This document shows positions 57,207-64,000 of a stretch of DNA of 64,000 nt, one piece after another. The stretch is from positions 113,541 to 177,540 of the forward strand of contig SVHW01000002.1 in NCBI GenBank assembly GCA_015055655.1, read 5' to 3'. How positions within the stretch are numbered: the stretch's first letter is position 1; each line of letters starts with the position of its first letter. This DNA is from Clostridiales bacterium (GTDB taxonomy: Bacteria; Bacillota; Clostridia; Christensenellales; Borkfalkiaceae). Position numbers and translations under genes: made by a program. The notes under the pieces are model-generated. The model saw only the letters and a list, made by a program, of their open reading frames with translations, did not search any database and was not told the origin of the DNA.

Positions 57207-57283
57207 TGAGGCGTAGCGCAGCTTGGTAGCGCGTTTGGTTAGGGACCAAAAGGTCGTGGGTTCAAGTCCCGTCGCCTCAACCA
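57207..57283 (+). tRNA. tRNA-Pro (anticodon AGG), CCA encoded
   Basis: Cloverleaf: TGAGGCG/CGCCTCA acceptor, GCGC D-stem, TTTGG-TTAGGGA-CCAAA anticodon arm, GTGGG-TTCAAGT-CCCGT T-arm, A73, CCA. Confidence 0.88.
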
Positions 57284-57574: not shown

Positions 57575-58612
57575 ATGAAGCCGATTGGAAATTTAATTGA
57601 ATTTATTCAAGTTATTCAGAAAAAAGATATTGCCGATAATAATACTTATTATGAAAATCTACGGATGACCAAAGATGAAATTCAAAAAAAAGAGGAACTT
57701 GTTTCTGAGTTGCATAAATTCGTTGTGGAAAAAGGAAATTTGGAAGATATAATGTTCCTTTTTAAGGATCACTTTTCAGTGTTATATAAGTATAAAATGT
57801 TGGAGTCCTATAAAGGCAAAAACAACTCAATCCCGCTTAGAAGGTTTTTTTATCGTGGCATTAGCAATAATAAACATAATCTCGTTTCAGGAGTTTATAG
57901 AAAGACTGAGCGACATGATGAATTTTATTACTGCAATGAAATAAATGTTCGCTGTCCTGAGGTTTTTAGACGATATCAAAATTTGGATAAACTTGTTTAT
58001 ATGCAACATTATGGATGTCCTACAAGGCTTTTGGATATAACCTCAAATCCGCTGGTTTCTTTATATTTTGCTTGTAGTGGGAATATTGAGCAAGATGGTT
58101 CGGTTTATATTTTTGGGATAAATGAAGAGGACATTCGATATGCTCAAAGTGATAGAATACATATGTTATCGAAATTATCAGAGCTAAAAAGGAGCGAACA
58201 AATAGATTTGTTTTTTTTGGCGTATGAAAATATTTTGAAAGGCAAATTTCCGCAAGATTCCCATGGAAAGTATAAAGATATTTTAGTTGAAAGATTTTAT
58301 CATGCAATCAAAAGAGAAAATGGTGCATTTGAAAGAGAGATTGTACCTTTTGATTTGTTAAAGCCTCAATTCGTCCAGCCATATAAAGACAATCCTCGTA
58401 TTTTAAAACAAGATGGAGCTTTTATTGTTTCAGGCTTAGATATTGACGAAGAAGATAGTGATAGAAAGATTCGGCATTATATGGTCAATGAAATCATAAT
58501 AGACAAAAATGCAAAAAAACAAATATTAAACGAATTAGAAGATGTAGGTATTAATAAAGCGACGCTTTTTCCTGAGGTGGATAAGGTTGCTGAATATTTA
58601 AAGGGTAAGTAA
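57575..58612 (+). CDS. FRG-domain protein
   Basis: RRFFYRGISNNKHNLVSGVYRKTER...DKLVYMQHYGCPTRLLDITSNPLVSLYFACSG is the FRG signature. Confidence 0.85.
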   Translation: MKPIGNLIEFIQVIQKKDIADNNTYYENLRMTKDEIQKKEELVSELHKFVVEKGNLEDIMFLFKDHFSVLYKYKMLESYKGKNNSIPLRRFFYRGISNNKHNLVSGVYRKTERHDEFYYCNEINVRCPEVFRRYQNLDKLVYMQHYGCPTRLLDITSNPLVSLYFACSGNIEQDGSVYIFGINEEDIRYAQSDRIHMLSKLSELKRSEQIDLFFLAYENILKGKFPQDSHGKYKDILVERFYHAIKRENGAFEREIVPFDLLKPQFVQPYKDNPRILKQDGAFIVSGLDIDEEDSDRKIRHYMVNEIIIDKNAKKQILNELEDVGINKATLFPEVDKVAEYLKGK

Positions 58613-58977: not shown

Positions 58978-59010
58978 ATCGGTTCAATATAGGTGCAAAC
59001 TGTTCAACCA

Positions 59011-59046
59011 AAAATAACGGATAGCCAGTAGGCTGTCCGTTATTTT
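59011..59046 (+). terminator. Terminator after FRG module
   Basis: AAAATAACGGATAGCC-AGTA-GGCTGTCCGTTATTTT. Confidence 0.8.
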
Positions 59047-59163
59047 TTTGTTTACGACTATGCAACGGGATTTAGGGGTGGACGAAAATGAAAAAATGGT
59101 ATGCGACGTTTCGGTGAGAGGGAGATTATAAAGAAGGCTTTTTATAAAATTAAAGTTTTGTTA

Positions 59164-59192
59164 TTGACAAATGGGCGGTTCTATTATACAAT
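59164..59192 (+). promoter_or_regulatory. Promoter of metallophosphoesterase gene
   Basis: TTGACA - 17 bp - TACAAT; RBS AAAGGAG before ATG 59255. Confidence 0.75.
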
Positions 59193-59254: not shown

Positions 59255-62200
59255 ATGGCGAAAATATGGAAAAAGACGTTGACGAGTATTGTTTTTATTT
59301 TGTTGACGTTATGTCTTTGGGCAGGGATTGCCGTTGCGCCCAAACGGGCGGTGGCGGACGGGGGCTCTTTTACGCTTGAAAAAACGACGTTTGAAGAAGG
59401 GGAGGCGATTACCGTTACGGCAAACGGCACGGGCGCTGACTGGATAGGCATTTTCCGTGAAGGGGAAGAAACGTCCGTGTATTGGTATTACGTGGCGGAA
59501 CATCCCGGTGCGTTCAACGTATTAAACGGTACGCCAAACGCAGGAACGGTAAATCACAGTATCACGGCAGGTACATACGTTATCGCATACGTCCCCAACG
59601 ATATGTCGGGGCTTTCCAACGCCACGCAAACGCAAACGATTAGCGTTACGGCTGCGACAACGGCGCTTCGGGTAGAGAAAACGAAGTTTATAGAAGGAGA
59701 GGCTATCAACGTTACGGCGACGGGCTCCGGTACGGACTGGGTAGGTATTTATCGCGAGGGGGAAACGGTTTCTGCGCGGTGGTATTACGTGGCGACGGCA
59801 GGCTCGGGCGTGTGCGTTAATTTGGCGACGTACGGCAATAATAACGAGGGAAGCGGTGTTTCTGCCACCATCAGCGCGGGGAAATATACGATATATTTGA
59901 TAAGAAACGACGGCAGTTATACGGACGCGGAAGTCGCTATTCCCATAACGGTTACCGCCGCTTCGGGACTGTACGTAGAAAAGACGGAATATGCGTTGAA
60001 AGAGCCTATTTACGTCACGGCTACGCATAGCGACCCGACGGCTTGGGTAGGGCTGTATCGAGCAACGGAAAGCAGTTATTGCAGATGGTATCCCGTTCCG
60101 TCGGCGAATAACGTTCCTTTTGATATTACGCAAGGTCAAGCCAATATAGAAGCGTCGTATTCTCCAAACGTTATGCGAGGGGAGTATATCTTAAAATTAT
60201 TCGTTTCAAAAACGGGCGTATCTTCCTCCAACGAGGCGGATTATAACGTGGTTGCTACGGCGGAGATTTCTGTGATTGCCGACCCGACTGTGCCGTCTGC
60301 GCCCCTTGCGGCAACGTATGCCTTGATAAACGATACGGACGGATACGCGACGGGTACGGTGACGGTGGTGATGCCAACGGAGGATATGGCAGACCGTTGT
60401 ATCGCGCTGTTTTGGGGGGACGACAACGGCGCCTTTGCGGAGTATTCGTATATTAAATTCCACGTAACGGGACAAACGACGTCGTTTACTTTTGGCAAAA
60501 ACGTCATAATTCCTTACGGCGCAACAAAATTGTACGTCTATGCGAAAAACACCAACGGTGACGCGCTGAGCGAAGATTGTGTTATCGTTGATTTACCACG
60601 TGGCGCGGCAGCGAAAAATCCGATGTACGCAGACGGCGGCGAAACGTTTTGGATAATCAGCGATACGCATATCGACCAAGACGTCAATCACACGCATAAC
60701 CAGCATTTTAAGAACTTGCTTGGGGATATTGCTCGCATTGACAAGGACGCGATGTCGCTGATTGTTAACGGGGATATGACCAATCGTGGACGCGACCAAG
60801 ACTTTGCCAATTTTCAGGCGATTTACGACGCGGCGACAAACGTTCCGCCAATGGTGCTGGCGATGGGCAACCACGAGTATTATAGCGGAACGTACGAGTA
60901 CGTTTGCAATAAATTTTACGAGTTGGCAAAATATCCCGACGGCACTTTTGTAAATAAGATGCATTTTGATTATTGGCAGGGCGGATATCATTTTGTTTTC
61001 CTTGGTACGGACGCTTGGCCGCAAAACAACACACACGCGGTACTCAGCGAAGAAACGCTAAATTGGTTTGATGACGTATTAGACGAAGGCAAGGACGAGG
61101 GGAAACCCACCTTTGTTTTCTTGCATCAGCCGCTTTATAACACCGTGGCGGGTAGCCGACCGGGCGAAGATTACAGCGGCGTAGAAGCGAGCGCTGAAAC
61201 TCGGTTGCGTGAAATTTTAAGTGACCATCCCGAAGTGATGATGTTCAACGGGCATACGCATTGGACGATGAACGCTGAAGCGAATATGTACGAAGGCACG
61301 GAAGAACTGCCTGCGCGTATTTTCAACACTTCGTCGGCGGGGTATCTTTGGACGACGTACGACAACGCCAGCGGCGATTATTTGTATGGCAGCGAAGGAT
61401 ATTACGTGCGCGTCTATGGCGGAACGCTGTATATTATGGGGTATGATTTCGTAAACGATAAATGGATTTCCGCGGCGCAGTATTGTATTGAGTTGTCAAA
61501 TTGTGCCCCCTGTAAAGATAATAATAACGACCATACCTGCGATATCTGCGGCGCGATTTTGGCGACCTGCGTGGATAACGATAACAATCACAACTGTGAC
61601 GTATGTGGTGAAAAATTAAGCGAATGCGTTGATAATGACAAAGACCATAATTGTGATGTTTGCGGTGAAACGTTGACGACCTGTGCAGACAGCAATAACG
61701 ACCACAACTGTGACGTTTGTGGTGACAAGTTAAGCAATTGCGCAGACGAAGACAGTGACCACGCTTGTGACGTATGCGGCGAAACGTTAACCGAATGCGC
61801 AGACGAAGACAGCGACCACCTTTGCGACGTTTGCGGCGATAAGTTAAGCAATTGTGCAGACAGCAATAACGACCACGCTTGTGACGTATGCGGTGAAACG
61901 TTGAGTGAATGTGCTGACAACAATAAAGACCATAAGTGCGATATTTGCGGCACGGCTATGGGCACGCACGAGGCGGCAAGCGGTAAACATACCTGCGATT
62001 ATTGCGGTCAAAAGGTAACTGATTGTGCAGACAATAACAAAGACCATAAGTGCGATGTTTGCGGCGCGTCTATGGGCACGCACGCAGCGGCAAGCGGTAA
62101 ACATACCTGTGATTATTGCGGTCAAAAGGTAACTGATTGCGCTGACAACGATAACGACCATAAGTGTGATACTTGCGGTACTACGTTGAGTGAATGTGCT

Positions 62201-64000
62201 GACAGCAACAACGACCATAAGTGTGATACCTGTGGAACGACGTTAAGCGAATGCGCAGACAATAACAAGGACCATAAGTGTGATACCTGCGGTACGACGT
62301 TAAGTGAATGCGCTGACAATAACAAGGAACATAAGTGCGACGTTTGCGGTGACAAGTTAAGCAATTGCGCAGACAGCAATAACGACCACAACTGCGACGT
62401 TTGTGGCGACAAGTTAAGCGATTGTGCAGACAGCAATAACGACCACGCTTGTGACATCTGCGACGAAACGTTAACGACCTGCGCGGACGAAGACAGCGAC
62501 CACAACTGCGACGTATGCGGTGAAACGTTGACCACCTGCGCAGACAACGATAACAACCATAACTGTGATATCTGCGGTGATAAGTTAAGCGACTGCGCTG
62601 ACGGCAATAACGACCATAAGTGCGATACTTGCGGTGAAACGTTGACGACCTGTGCAGACAACGATAACGACCACAACTGTGATGTTTGTGGCGTAGGCAT
62701 ATCCTCTTGCGCAGACGAAGATAGCGACCACAATTGTGATATTTGTGGCACGGCGTTGAGCGAGTGTGCTGACAATAACAACGACCATAATTGTGATATT
62801 TGTGGTGATAAAGTAAGCGATTGCGTAGATAACGACAATGACCATAACTGCGATATTTGTGGTGAAACGTTAACGACCTGTGCGGATAACGATAAAGACC
62901 ACCTTTGCGATACTTGCGGTACTACGTTGAGTGAATGCGCTGATAACAATAACGACCACAACTGTGACGTATGCGGTGAAACGTTGAGCGAATGCGTTGA
63001 TAATGATAACAATCACAACTGTGATATTTGTGGTGAAACGTTGAGCGAATGTACGGATAATAACAACGACCACAATTGCGACGTCTGCGGCGAAACGTTG
63101 ACGACATGTGCAGACAACGATAACGACCACAATTGCGATGTTTGTGGTGAAACGTTGACGACCTGTGCAGACAGCAATAACGACCACGCTTGCGATATCT
63201 GCGGTGAAACGTTAAGCGAATGCGCTGACGAAGACTGTGACCACGCTTGCGATGTCTGCGGTGACAAGTTGAGCGATTGCGCGGACGAAGACAGCGACCA
63301 CCTTTGCGACGTTTGTGGTGACAAGTTAAGCAATTGTGCTGATAATGATAACGACCATAACTGCGACATCTGCGGTGAAACGTTAAGCGAATGCGCTGAC
63401 GAAGACAGTGACCACGCTTGCGATGTCTGCGGTGAAAAATTAAGCGAATGTGTTGATAATGATAACAATCACAACTGTGACATCTGTGGTGACAAATTAA
63501 GTGATTGTGTAGACGGCAATAACGACCACGCTTGTGACGTTTGTGGTGATAAATTAAGCGACTGCGAAGACAACGATAACGACCACAACTGTGACGTTTG
63601 TGGCGACAAGTTGACGACCTGTGCAGACAACGATAACAACCATAACTGTGATATCTGCGGTGAAACGTTAACGACCTGCGCGGATGAAGATAACGACCAT
63701 AATTGTGACGTTTGCGGTGAAACGTTAACGACCTGTGCTGATAATGATAACGACCACGCTTGTGACGTTTGTGGTGATAAATTAAGCGATTGCGCTGACA
63801 GCAATAACGACCACAATTGCGATATTTGCGGTGACAAAGTAAGCGATTGTGCAGACAGCAATAACGACCACGCTTGTGACGTTTGCGGTGAAACGTTAAC
63901 GACCTGTGCTGATAATGATAACGACCACGCTTGTGACGTTTGTGGTGATAAATTAAGCGATTGCGCTGACAGCAATAACGACCACAATTGCGATATTTGC
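59255..64000 (+). CDS. Secreted calcineurin-like metallophosphoesterase with N-terminal beta-sandwich-like repeats and a giant C-terminal Cys/His/Asp repeat array (3' end outside window)
   Basis: Manual translation is open from ATG 59255 to the window end; SDTHID, NGDMTNRG, GNHEYY, LHQPLYN, NGHTHWT metallophosphoesterase motifs; signal peptide. Missing from the ORF track because no stop lies in the window. Confidence 0.9.
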   Translation, partial: MAKIWKKTLTSIVFILLTLCLWAGIAVAPKRAVADGGSFTLEKTTFEEGEAITVTANGTGADWIGIFREGEETSVYWYYVAEHPGAFNVLNGTPNAGTVNHSITAGTYVIAYVPNDMSGLSNATQTQTISVTAATTALRVEKTKFIEGEAINVTATGSGTDWVGIYREGETVSARWYYVATAGSGVCVNLATYGNNNEGSGVSATISAGKYTIYLIRNDGSYTDAEVAIPITVTAASGLYVEKTEYALKEPIYVTATHSDPTAWVGLYRATESSYCRWYPVPSANNVPFDITQGQANIEASYSPNVMRGEYILKLFVSKTGVSSSNEADYNVVATAEISVIADPTVPSAPLAATYALINDTDGYATGTVTVVMPTEDMADRCIALFWGDDNGAFAEYSYIKFHVTGQTTSFTFGKNVIIPYGATKLYVYAKNTNGDALSEDCVIVDLPRGAAAKNPMYADGGETFWIISDTHIDQDVNHTHNQHFKNLLGDIARIDKDAMSLIVNGDMTNRGRDQDFANFQAIYDAATNVPPMVLAMGNHEYYSGTYEYVCNKFYELAKYPDGTFVNKMHFDYWQGGYHFVFLGTDAWPQNNTHAVLSEETLNWFDDVLDEGKDEGKPTFVFLHQPLYNTVAGSRPGEDYSGVEASAETRLREILSDHPEVMMFNGHTHWTMNAEANMYEGTEELPARIFNTSSAGYLWTTYDNASGDYLYGSEGYYVRVYGGTLYIMGYDFVNDKWISAAQYCIELSNCAPCKDNNNDHTCDICGAILATCVDNDNNHNCDVCGEKLSECVDNDKDHNCDVCGETLTTCADSNNDHNCDVCGDKLSNCADEDSDHACDVCGETLTECADEDSDHLCDVCGDKLSNCADSNNDHACDVCGETLSECADNNKDHKCDICGTAMGTHEAASGKHTCDYCGQKVTDCADNNKDHKCDVCGASMGTHAAASGKHTCDYCGQKVTDCADNDNDHKCDTCGTTLSECADSNNDHKCDTCGTTLSECADNNKDHKCDTCGTTLSECADNNKEHKCDVCGDKLSNCADSNNDHNCDVCGDKLSDCADSNNDHACDICDETLTTCADEDSDHNCDVCGETLTTCADNDNNHNCDICGDKLSDCADGNNDHKCDTCGETLTTCADNDNDHNCDVCGVGISSCADEDSDHNCDICGTALSECADNNNDHNCDICGDKVSDCVDNDNDHNCDICGETLTTCADNDKDHLCDTCGTTLSECADNNNDHNCDVCGETLSECVDNDNNHNCDICGETLSECTDNNNDHNCDVCGETLTTCADNDNDHNCDVCGETLTTCADSNNDHACDICGETLSECADEDCDHACDVCGDKLSDCADEDSDHLCDVCGDKLSNCADNDNDHNCDICGETLSECADEDSDHACDVCGEKLSECVDNDNNHNCDICGDKLSDCVDGNNDHACDVCGDKLSDCEDNDNDHNCDVCGDKLTTCADNDNNHNCDICGETLTTCADEDNDHNCDVCGETLTTCADNDNDHACDVCGDKLSDCADSNNDHNCDICGDKVSDCADSNNDHACDVCGETLTTCADNDNDHACDVCGDKLSDCADSNNDHNCDIC
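61511..64000 (+). repeat. 57-bp tandem repeat array (43 complete + 1 partial unit)
   Basis: 19-aa units, e.g. CADNDNDHNCDVCGETLTT; unit 1 Cys codon at 61511, unit 44 at 63962 = 43 x 57 bp exactly. Confidence 0.93.

Follow-up and report, generated by a model that had tools for sequence, protein, structure and literature searches.

The locus analysed here raises the question of what a long series of 19-residue units rich in Cys, His and Asp is doing behind a secreted phosphoesterase. The gene lies at the end of the window, i.e. the whole 64,000-nt stretch of DNA that was analysed. The earlier note had claimed a + strand frame open from 59255 to the window end over at least 1582 codons, and this was borne out: the ORF begins with an ATG at 59255, closely preceded on its 5' side by AAAGGAGA, and runs without a stop to 64000 (1582 codons). 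Its features are the following.

59164..59192, + strand: sigma-70-like promoter match, TTGACA-17-TACAAT (consensus match only)
59255..59359, + strand: signal peptide, residues 1-35 (approximate), MAKIWKKTLTSIVFILLTLCLWAGIAVAPKRAVA, without a lipobox, judged by eye
59375..60271, + strand: three related domains (starts 59375, 59672 and 59975) sharing the motif V/LEKTxxxxxExIxVTAxGxxxDWVGIYR
60644..61261, + strand: calcineurin-like metallophosphoesterase (PF00149, 1.5e-14; all active-site motifs)
61484..61504, + strand: N-terminal array cap (C744 and C750), predicted to supply the ligand replacing the absent H8 of a preceding unit (sequence, cap statistics)
61511..64000, + strand: array of 19-aa units, 43 of them complete and the last partial, with 44 complete predicted four-ligand sites (sequence, TRF)
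61967..62023, + strand: unit without the Asp loop, HEAASGKHTCDYCGQKVTD, with position 1 changed from Cys to His (unit alignment)
62081..62137, + strand: second unit with His at position 1, HAAASGKHTCDYCGQKVTD (unit alignment)
63874..64000, + strand: exact 127-bp copy of 63703-63829, with the contig end inside the array (sequence comparison; contig terminus)

The promoter match agrees with the consensus at 11 of 12 positions, while about 1.5 such sites are expected by chance in the region. It should be noted that position 64000 is also the end of the contig, and that the gene therefore runs off the contig and not merely off the window. The exact repeat formed by the final 127 bp is typical of an assembly break inside an array. 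Because the contig terminates there, the stop codon and the anchor of the gene lie beyond the available sequence; a search for its continuation in another contig found none.

In the N-terminal half the signal peptide was recognized, and the three repeats described as sandwich-like are indeed related to each other; a sandwich fold is putative at most, the match being only to a SKICH-like W[VI]GIY motif, with no single stretch passing alone. The calcineurin-like phosphoesterase was confirmed by a PF00149 (Metallophos) score of 55.3 bits against a gathering cut-off of 21.5, and by the presence, in the expected order, of all five metal-ligand motifs D-x-H, GD, GNH[ED], H and GHxH, found here as ISDTH (DTH at 60656), NGD (GD at 60767), GNHE (60866), LHQP (H at 61121) and GHTH (61247). 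Judged from these motifs, the domain is intact. The nearest solved structures are those of the phosphohydrolase 2zo9/2dxl. Assignment to the SpdA cyclic nucleotide phosphodiesterases (NF050112) was considered and rejected, the score being 46.5 bits against an equivalog cut-off of 400.

The array follows the consensus [CH]-A-D-x-[DN]-x-D-H-x-C-D-x-C-G-x-x-L-x-x. As previously stated, its 44 units are in phase and free of indels, since all 43 spacings counted from 61511 are exactly 19 aa (57 bp); TRF recovers the same array, with a superperiod of 171 bp. H8, C10, D11 and C13 occur in all 44 units, position 1 is Cys in 42 and His in two, and positions 3, 5 and 7 are jointly D/N in 41. All 44 predicted sites have their four Cys/His ligands. 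Comparison of the units with each other gave a pS of about 0.8 and a pN of 0.21, with no nonsynonymous difference at H8, C10, D11 or C13. The ligand residues are under strong selection, with synonymous sites saturated and amino acids fixed, and for this reason an origin of the array by chance, or as artefactual repetition, was ruled out.

Which of these residues share a site was addressed with about 750 units from some 55 array loci, a set that is partly non-independent, since several of the pectinesterases in it are homologous to each other, as are several of the LRR proteins and of the solute-binding proteins. H8 is present in 654 of the 677 units that have a successor and in only seven of the 41 terminal units (Fisher 5e-36). 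Where a unit lacks H8, an extra Cys or His stands at position -2 of the next unit in 19 of 28 cases, against 2/534 otherwise (1e-26), although about a third of such units (9/28) have no ligand there. In each of the 19 internal units so compensated, -2 and position 1 hold one Cys and one His between them (p=2e-5), and the CCCH set is thereby preserved. In addition, 25 of 40 first units carry Cys/His caps at -3 to -1. Because terminal units lose H8, the next unit compensates at -2 and first units are capped, we infer a CCCH site composed of H8(i-1), [C/H]1(i), C10(i) and C13(i), which would join adjacent units. The earlier note had placed C1, H8, C10 and C13 in a Zn-type site within one unit; the residue set stood, but the grouping probably did not, H8 pairing with the next unit. 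A chain of flexible, independent zinc beads, each unit binding its own metal, would agree with the conservation of all four residues inside a single unit, but leaves unexplained both why only the terminal unit loses H8 while retaining C1, C10 and C13, and why the loss of H8 is made good at -2 in the following unit; we hold it to be unlikely.

The same statistics bear on the nature of the sites. Exchange of C1 for His is found both within and between species, and together with the capping rules it supports metal ligands over disulphides. A disulphide-stabilized array resembling thrombospondin type 3 (TSP3), with paired Cys and only the Asp loop binding a metal (Ca), would fit the extracellular location, the identical D-x-D-x-D-[G/H]-x-x-D spacing and the G8 of many terminal units, which gives a canonical DxDxDG loop. 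It is difficult to reconcile with the three Cys per unit, with position 1 being freely His (across the entire array at one locus), with units that lack the Asp loop and retain every Cys and His, and with caps in which Cys and His are swapped; moreover, neither the TSP_3 nor the dockerin HMM matches. As the main reading it was ruled out by the Cys/His exchange, and its overall chance appears as small as that of independent beads. The likeness of DxDxD to TSP3 Ca-binding loops, also pointed out earlier, holds for the spacing DxDxD[H/G]xxD and not for an HMM match. An array of rubredoxin-like sites holding Fe rather than Zn, possibly as an electron-conducting wire, would suit a presumably anaerobic host and the Cys-rich CxxCG knuckles, and rubredoxin is among the fold matches (E=9.2). 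These matches lack significance, however, CCCH is a typical Zn ligand set, and the cargo consists mainly of hydrolases and binding proteins with no redox pattern, so that this explanation is barely plausible.

The position of the arrays in related proteins points to a role as a stalk. In 17 of 24 lipoproteins no more than 30 aa separate the start of the array from the lipobox Cys, and in eight of nine TM-anchored proteins its end lies no more than 85 aa from the C-terminus; none of 20000 random placements matched the observed pattern. The genome also encodes a complete paralogue with more than 110 units, of which the terminal one has G8 and is followed by a TM-KRKKEN tail. The cargo includes pectinesterases, LRRs, solute-binding proteins, a trypsin-like protease and a thioredoxin-like protein. 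One of the roles suggested earlier, that the array provides the phosphoesterase with metal, was not sustained, as relatives of the enzyme lack the array and the same arrays occur on other cargo; anchor-proximal arrays with unrelated cargo favour a generic stalk instead. A stiff or spacer-like stalk fits best, and storage, also suggested earlier, is less favoured. A surface metal store, in which the number of sites matters and the stalk is incidental, would account for 44 to more than 110 sites per protein and for the presence of several of these genes in a single genome of 1.38 Mb, but many arrays have just 3-8 units, they adjoin the anchor and carry diverse cargo, and a site buried between units would exchange metal poorly. 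We consider it very unlikely.

The window protein appears to be a surface enzyme of a gut bacterium, placed on a long stalk of at least 44 repeats, in which metal would pin neighbouring units together. From the array and its conservation and selection, the ligand-exchange and capping statistics, the anchor proximity and the cargo diversity, all of them observed, we infer the metal and its identity, the stiffness of the rod and the anchor of this gene. In the proposed architecture, the protein would be secreted and probably held in the cell wall or membrane, with the C-terminal array as its stalk. Each unit would consist of a knuckle (a short beta bridge around C10-D-x-C13-G) and an Asp-rich loop, and is predicted to hold one divalent metal, most likely Zn2+, through H8 of the preceding unit together with C10, C13 and the Cys or His at position 1 of its own sequence. 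As each metal would bridge two adjacent units, the array is proposed to be a continuous metal-crosslinked rod; the DxDxD[H/G]xxD loop may bind an additional Ca2+ per unit. AF2 models of the cap and first five units (mean pLDDT 88, pTM 0.62) contain one beta bridge in each unit, flanking C10/C13, and a natural capped five-unit lipoprotein gave a like pattern (pLDDT 75). Near the anchor, such an array would serve as a generic spacer raising varied extracellular domains above the surface. Taken as a whole, an anchored secreted phosphoesterase on a metal-stapled spacer stalk is the probable reading.

Cys-rich arrays of this type are recurrent in MAGs of herbivore-gut Clostridia, and yet no family model exists for the unit. 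No array was found in 18 genomes of the same genus; phage and plasmid collections gave no match, and a mobile carrier is therefore not indicated there. That they form an undescribed repeat class of metal-held, wall-spanning rods, with metal stapling neighbouring 19-aa units between dedicated N- and C-terminal caps, is a tentative idea with the chances against it. If true, the stiffness or reach of the stalk could track metal availability in the gut, and members with more than 100 sites could also act as a surface metal reservoir. The four-ligand rule and the caps, deduced from sequence alone, define a structural class that lends itself to testing, that of short, modular rods crosslinked by metal, which would explain how pectinases, LRR proteins and transport receptors stand off the membrane. 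They also caution that an extracellular, Cys-rich protein need not be disulphide-rich.

No entry covering the unit was found in Pfam, NCBIfam or the PDB, where a known family fully describing the repeat, named in the earlier note as grounds for abandoning its reading, was sought. Searches of the PDB by sequence and by fold gave nothing significant for the array, and the literature nothing relevant on the unit sequence or on metal-repeat stalks. The window enzyme shares its catalytic motifs with GpdQ-like and class III cyclic-nucleotide phosphodiesterases (2zo9; NCBIfam NF050112), but differs in being secreted and in its three N-terminal repeats and C-terminal array. Nearly every array unit has the DxDxD[G/H]xxD spacing of TSP_3 and dockerin/EF-like Ca loops, although the TSP_3 HMM has no match at E<=1 to the full protein or a six-unit piece, and the dockerin HMM gave none either. 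With respect to the TSP_3 loop DxDxDGxxD, the predicted loop has H8 in place of G except in terminal units, and compared with thrombospondin type 3 each unit adds three Cys and one His, with a Cys/His exchange that is not disulphide-like. Zinc ribbon and knuckle families (zf-C2H2_6, DZR, HVO_2753, rubredoxin-type CxxCG) share the CDxCG knuckle and short beta bridge, but zinc ribbon and C2H2 families match only as knuckle-sized fragments below cut-off, most of about 8-15 residues, and the predicted site is completed by the adjacent unit; the whole-protein 30 bits of zf-C2H2_6 are due to repetition, no individual stretch passing. A further parallel is with periscope proteins and fibrillar adhesin stalks, in which highly similar tandem repeats, made of folded domains such as SHIRT or Rib, extend from an anchor to a distal functional domain, and unit number differs among genes (PMC8201768, PMC9704523, PMC9210967). 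Tandem repeats between anchor and functional domain are likewise found here, given the array in the window, whose own anchor is predicted, and the anchor proximity in relatives, and unit number also varies from gene to gene; the difference lies in the enzymatic cargo and in the repeats themselves, which are 19 aa long and predicted to be stapled by metal.

All the parts described in the earlier note were present at 59255-64000: the + frame is open from the ATG at 59255 to 64000 (1582 codons) and its product begins with a signal peptide, followed by three related domains, a calcineurin-like phosphoesterase domain (PF00149, 1.5e-14) in which five of five active-site motifs were found, and the repeat array.

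59010-59047, behind the preceding gene: terminator-like hairpin (consensus match only)
59164-59192, + strand: promoter-like TTGACA-17-TACAAT (consensus match only)
Directly upstream of ATG 59255, + strand: AAAGGAGA
Starts 59375, 59672 and 59975, + strand: three related domains
From 61511, + strand: 19-aa repeat array

The contig ends exactly with the window (G000:C2:113541-177540). Its terminal 127 bp exactly duplicate 63703-63829, so that it breaks off within the array at a point which an assembler could not be expected to resolve; no continuation was seen on another contig. The repeats at 59375-60271 share a W[VI]GIY motif and match the eukaryotic SKICH domain (28.5 bits, cut-off 23.4), with no single stretch passing; similar repeats occur in array-less phosphoesterase relatives. 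Upstream lie an FRG-domain protein gene (57575-58612; PF08867, 1.9e-17) and, adjoining it, a tRNA-Pro (57207-57283).

Up to the contig end, the window array runs to 43 full units plus a partial one at a constant spacing of 19 aa, so that the unbroken 57-bp phase noticed earlier is confirmed. Position 1 is Cys in 42 units and His in 2, while H8, C10, D11 and C13 are invariant. Cys, His and Asp make up 15.8%, 5.5% and 20.6% of the array; the 744 residues ahead of it contain 7 Cys. Synonymous differences among units are saturated (pS 0.8) and no nonsynonymous difference occurs at position 8, 10, 11 or 13; therefore, the array is old and maintained by protein-level selection, and is not a product of recent slippage.

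The grouping of these residues was examined in 748 units from 83 arrays (window and relatives), called by a procedure in which Asp and His positions are scored and H8 is optional. Of 677 units with another Cys/His unit after them, 654 have H8, as against just 7 of the 41 terminal units, which keep C1, C10 and C13 (Fisher 5e-36; the sample includes some homologous loci, and this and the following p-values overstate independence). By locus, 29 fully obey this rule and 7 contain an exception. An extra Cys/His occurs at position -2 of the next unit in 19/28 cases after a unit lacking H8, as opposed to 2/534 after a unit with H8 (1e-26). All 19 compensated cases pair a Cys with a His at -2 and position 1 (12 HxC, 7 CxH; p=2e-5), which preserves a ligand set of three Cys plus a single His. 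First units, which have no predecessor, carry Cys/His at -3 to -1 in 25/40 cases (C750 in the window, NCAPC), with looser pairing (17 mixed, 8 alike). The Cys/His exchange at position 1 is typical of metal ligands and impossible for disulphide cysteines. The simplest reading is one predicted metal site per unit, formed by H8(i-1), [C/H]1(i), C10(i) and C13(i), under which 44/44 window sites are complete. The single-unit C1/H8/C10/C13 site proposed earlier thus had the right residues but probably the wrong grouping, as terminal loss and -2 compensation assign H8 to the next unit. Our confidence in the array and the ligand rule is high; zinc as the metal, and stiffness of the stalk, are what we infer.

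An AF2 model of the window cap (the segment with C744 and C750 before the first unit) and five units (32-sequence alignment; mean pLDDT 88.4, pTM 0.62) shows in each unit a single beta bridge that links positions 9 and 16 around CDxCG, as would be expected of a metal knuckle. The same bridges were predicted for L047, a natural five-unit lipoprotein (pLDDT 74.5, reached only by the best of five models). A PDB fold search returned no similar structure: its matches, an RNA polymerase II subunit and a rubredoxin among them, were at chance level, with a best E of 7.8. A PDB sequence search gave no related solved chain. The likeness of DxDxD to Ca-binding TSP3-like loops holds for spacing (D3, D5, D7, D11, as in EF/TSP3 loops), but the loop is missing from H1-variant units such as HEAASGKHTC, which keep all Cys/His; it looks accessory.

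Anchors, assigned by simple rules devised for this analysis, lie close to the arrays: 17/24 lipoprotein arrays begin no more than 30 aa from the lipid Cys, and 8/9 arrays of proteins with a C-terminal TM segment end within 85 aa of the C-terminus (matched by 0/20000 random placements). The cargo types are mutually unrelated: pectinesterase with Big_3 and CBM77, BspA LRRs, ABC solute-binding proteins, trypsin-like protease, exo/endonuclease-phosphatase, DUF6273 and carbohydrate-binding Cthe_2159. Relatives of the phosphoesterase have no array at their end, and the N-terminus of most is lipobox-like; the 59255 gene therefore seems to have given up an N-terminal lipid anchor and to carry a C-terminal stalk instead. 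Taken together, anchor proximity, unrelated cargo and array-less relatives point to a generic anchor-proximal stalk. The last two speak against the array as a helper of the phosphoesterase, and with it against the earlier idea of metal supply to this enzyme. By eye, the C-termini of four array proteins (L023, L028, L035, L043) resemble SLH or dockerin-like modules.

The window's genome (1.38 Mb, 18 contigs) encodes other array proteins as well.

L016, 5294-14866, - strand: complete 3177-aa surface protein, over 110 units
L017, 8302-16173, + strand: 2623-aa lipoprotein, about 41 units
L018, 1-8905, - strand: lipoprotein of at least 2968 aa, 6 array units
L020, 5409-6881, + strand: lipoprotein with thioredoxin-like domain

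L016 closes with a terminal unit bearing G8, a hydrophobic (TM) segment and KRKKEN. L018 also has fibronectin-like repeats, more than 25 similar copies of LxAPVVTLxxNVAxWxxVxNAxGY. L017 and L020 contain two further Cys/His motif families with four C/H positions each, HTGGxATCxxxAxCxxCGxxYG and HxCxFxxxVxxxxYxxSDATCxxKATYYYSCxCGxxGxETFxYG, neither with a Pfam match above cut-off. In L020, knuckles of this kind are combined with a thioredoxin that is TlpA-like by eye (WCGPC).

The distribution is patchy. From 85,462 species genomes, a single scan retrieved 74 loci; nearly all of them are in Clostridia and Oscillospiraceae MAGs, of which many come from the gut of goat, sheep, deer, yak, cattle, horse or rabbit. 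At E<=1e-8, and counting the window's genome, the array occurs in 6/297 genomes of the order and 2/388 of the class; among 398 phylum genomes only the window's own matches. Within the family sample, none of the 18 genomes from the same genus has it, and phage and plasmid collections gave no match.

The earlier note had allowed for a known family describing the unit; none was found in Pfam, NCBIfam or PDB, where searches returned only sub-threshold knuckle fragments, and a literature search for the repeat string found no paper containing it. Periscope and fibrillar-adhesin stalks (PMC8201768, PMC9704523, PMC9210967) resemble the window array in that it, too, would work as a repeat stalk, but they consist of folded domains. 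New relative to known repeat stalks would be that predicted inter-unit metal sites hold the stalk together.
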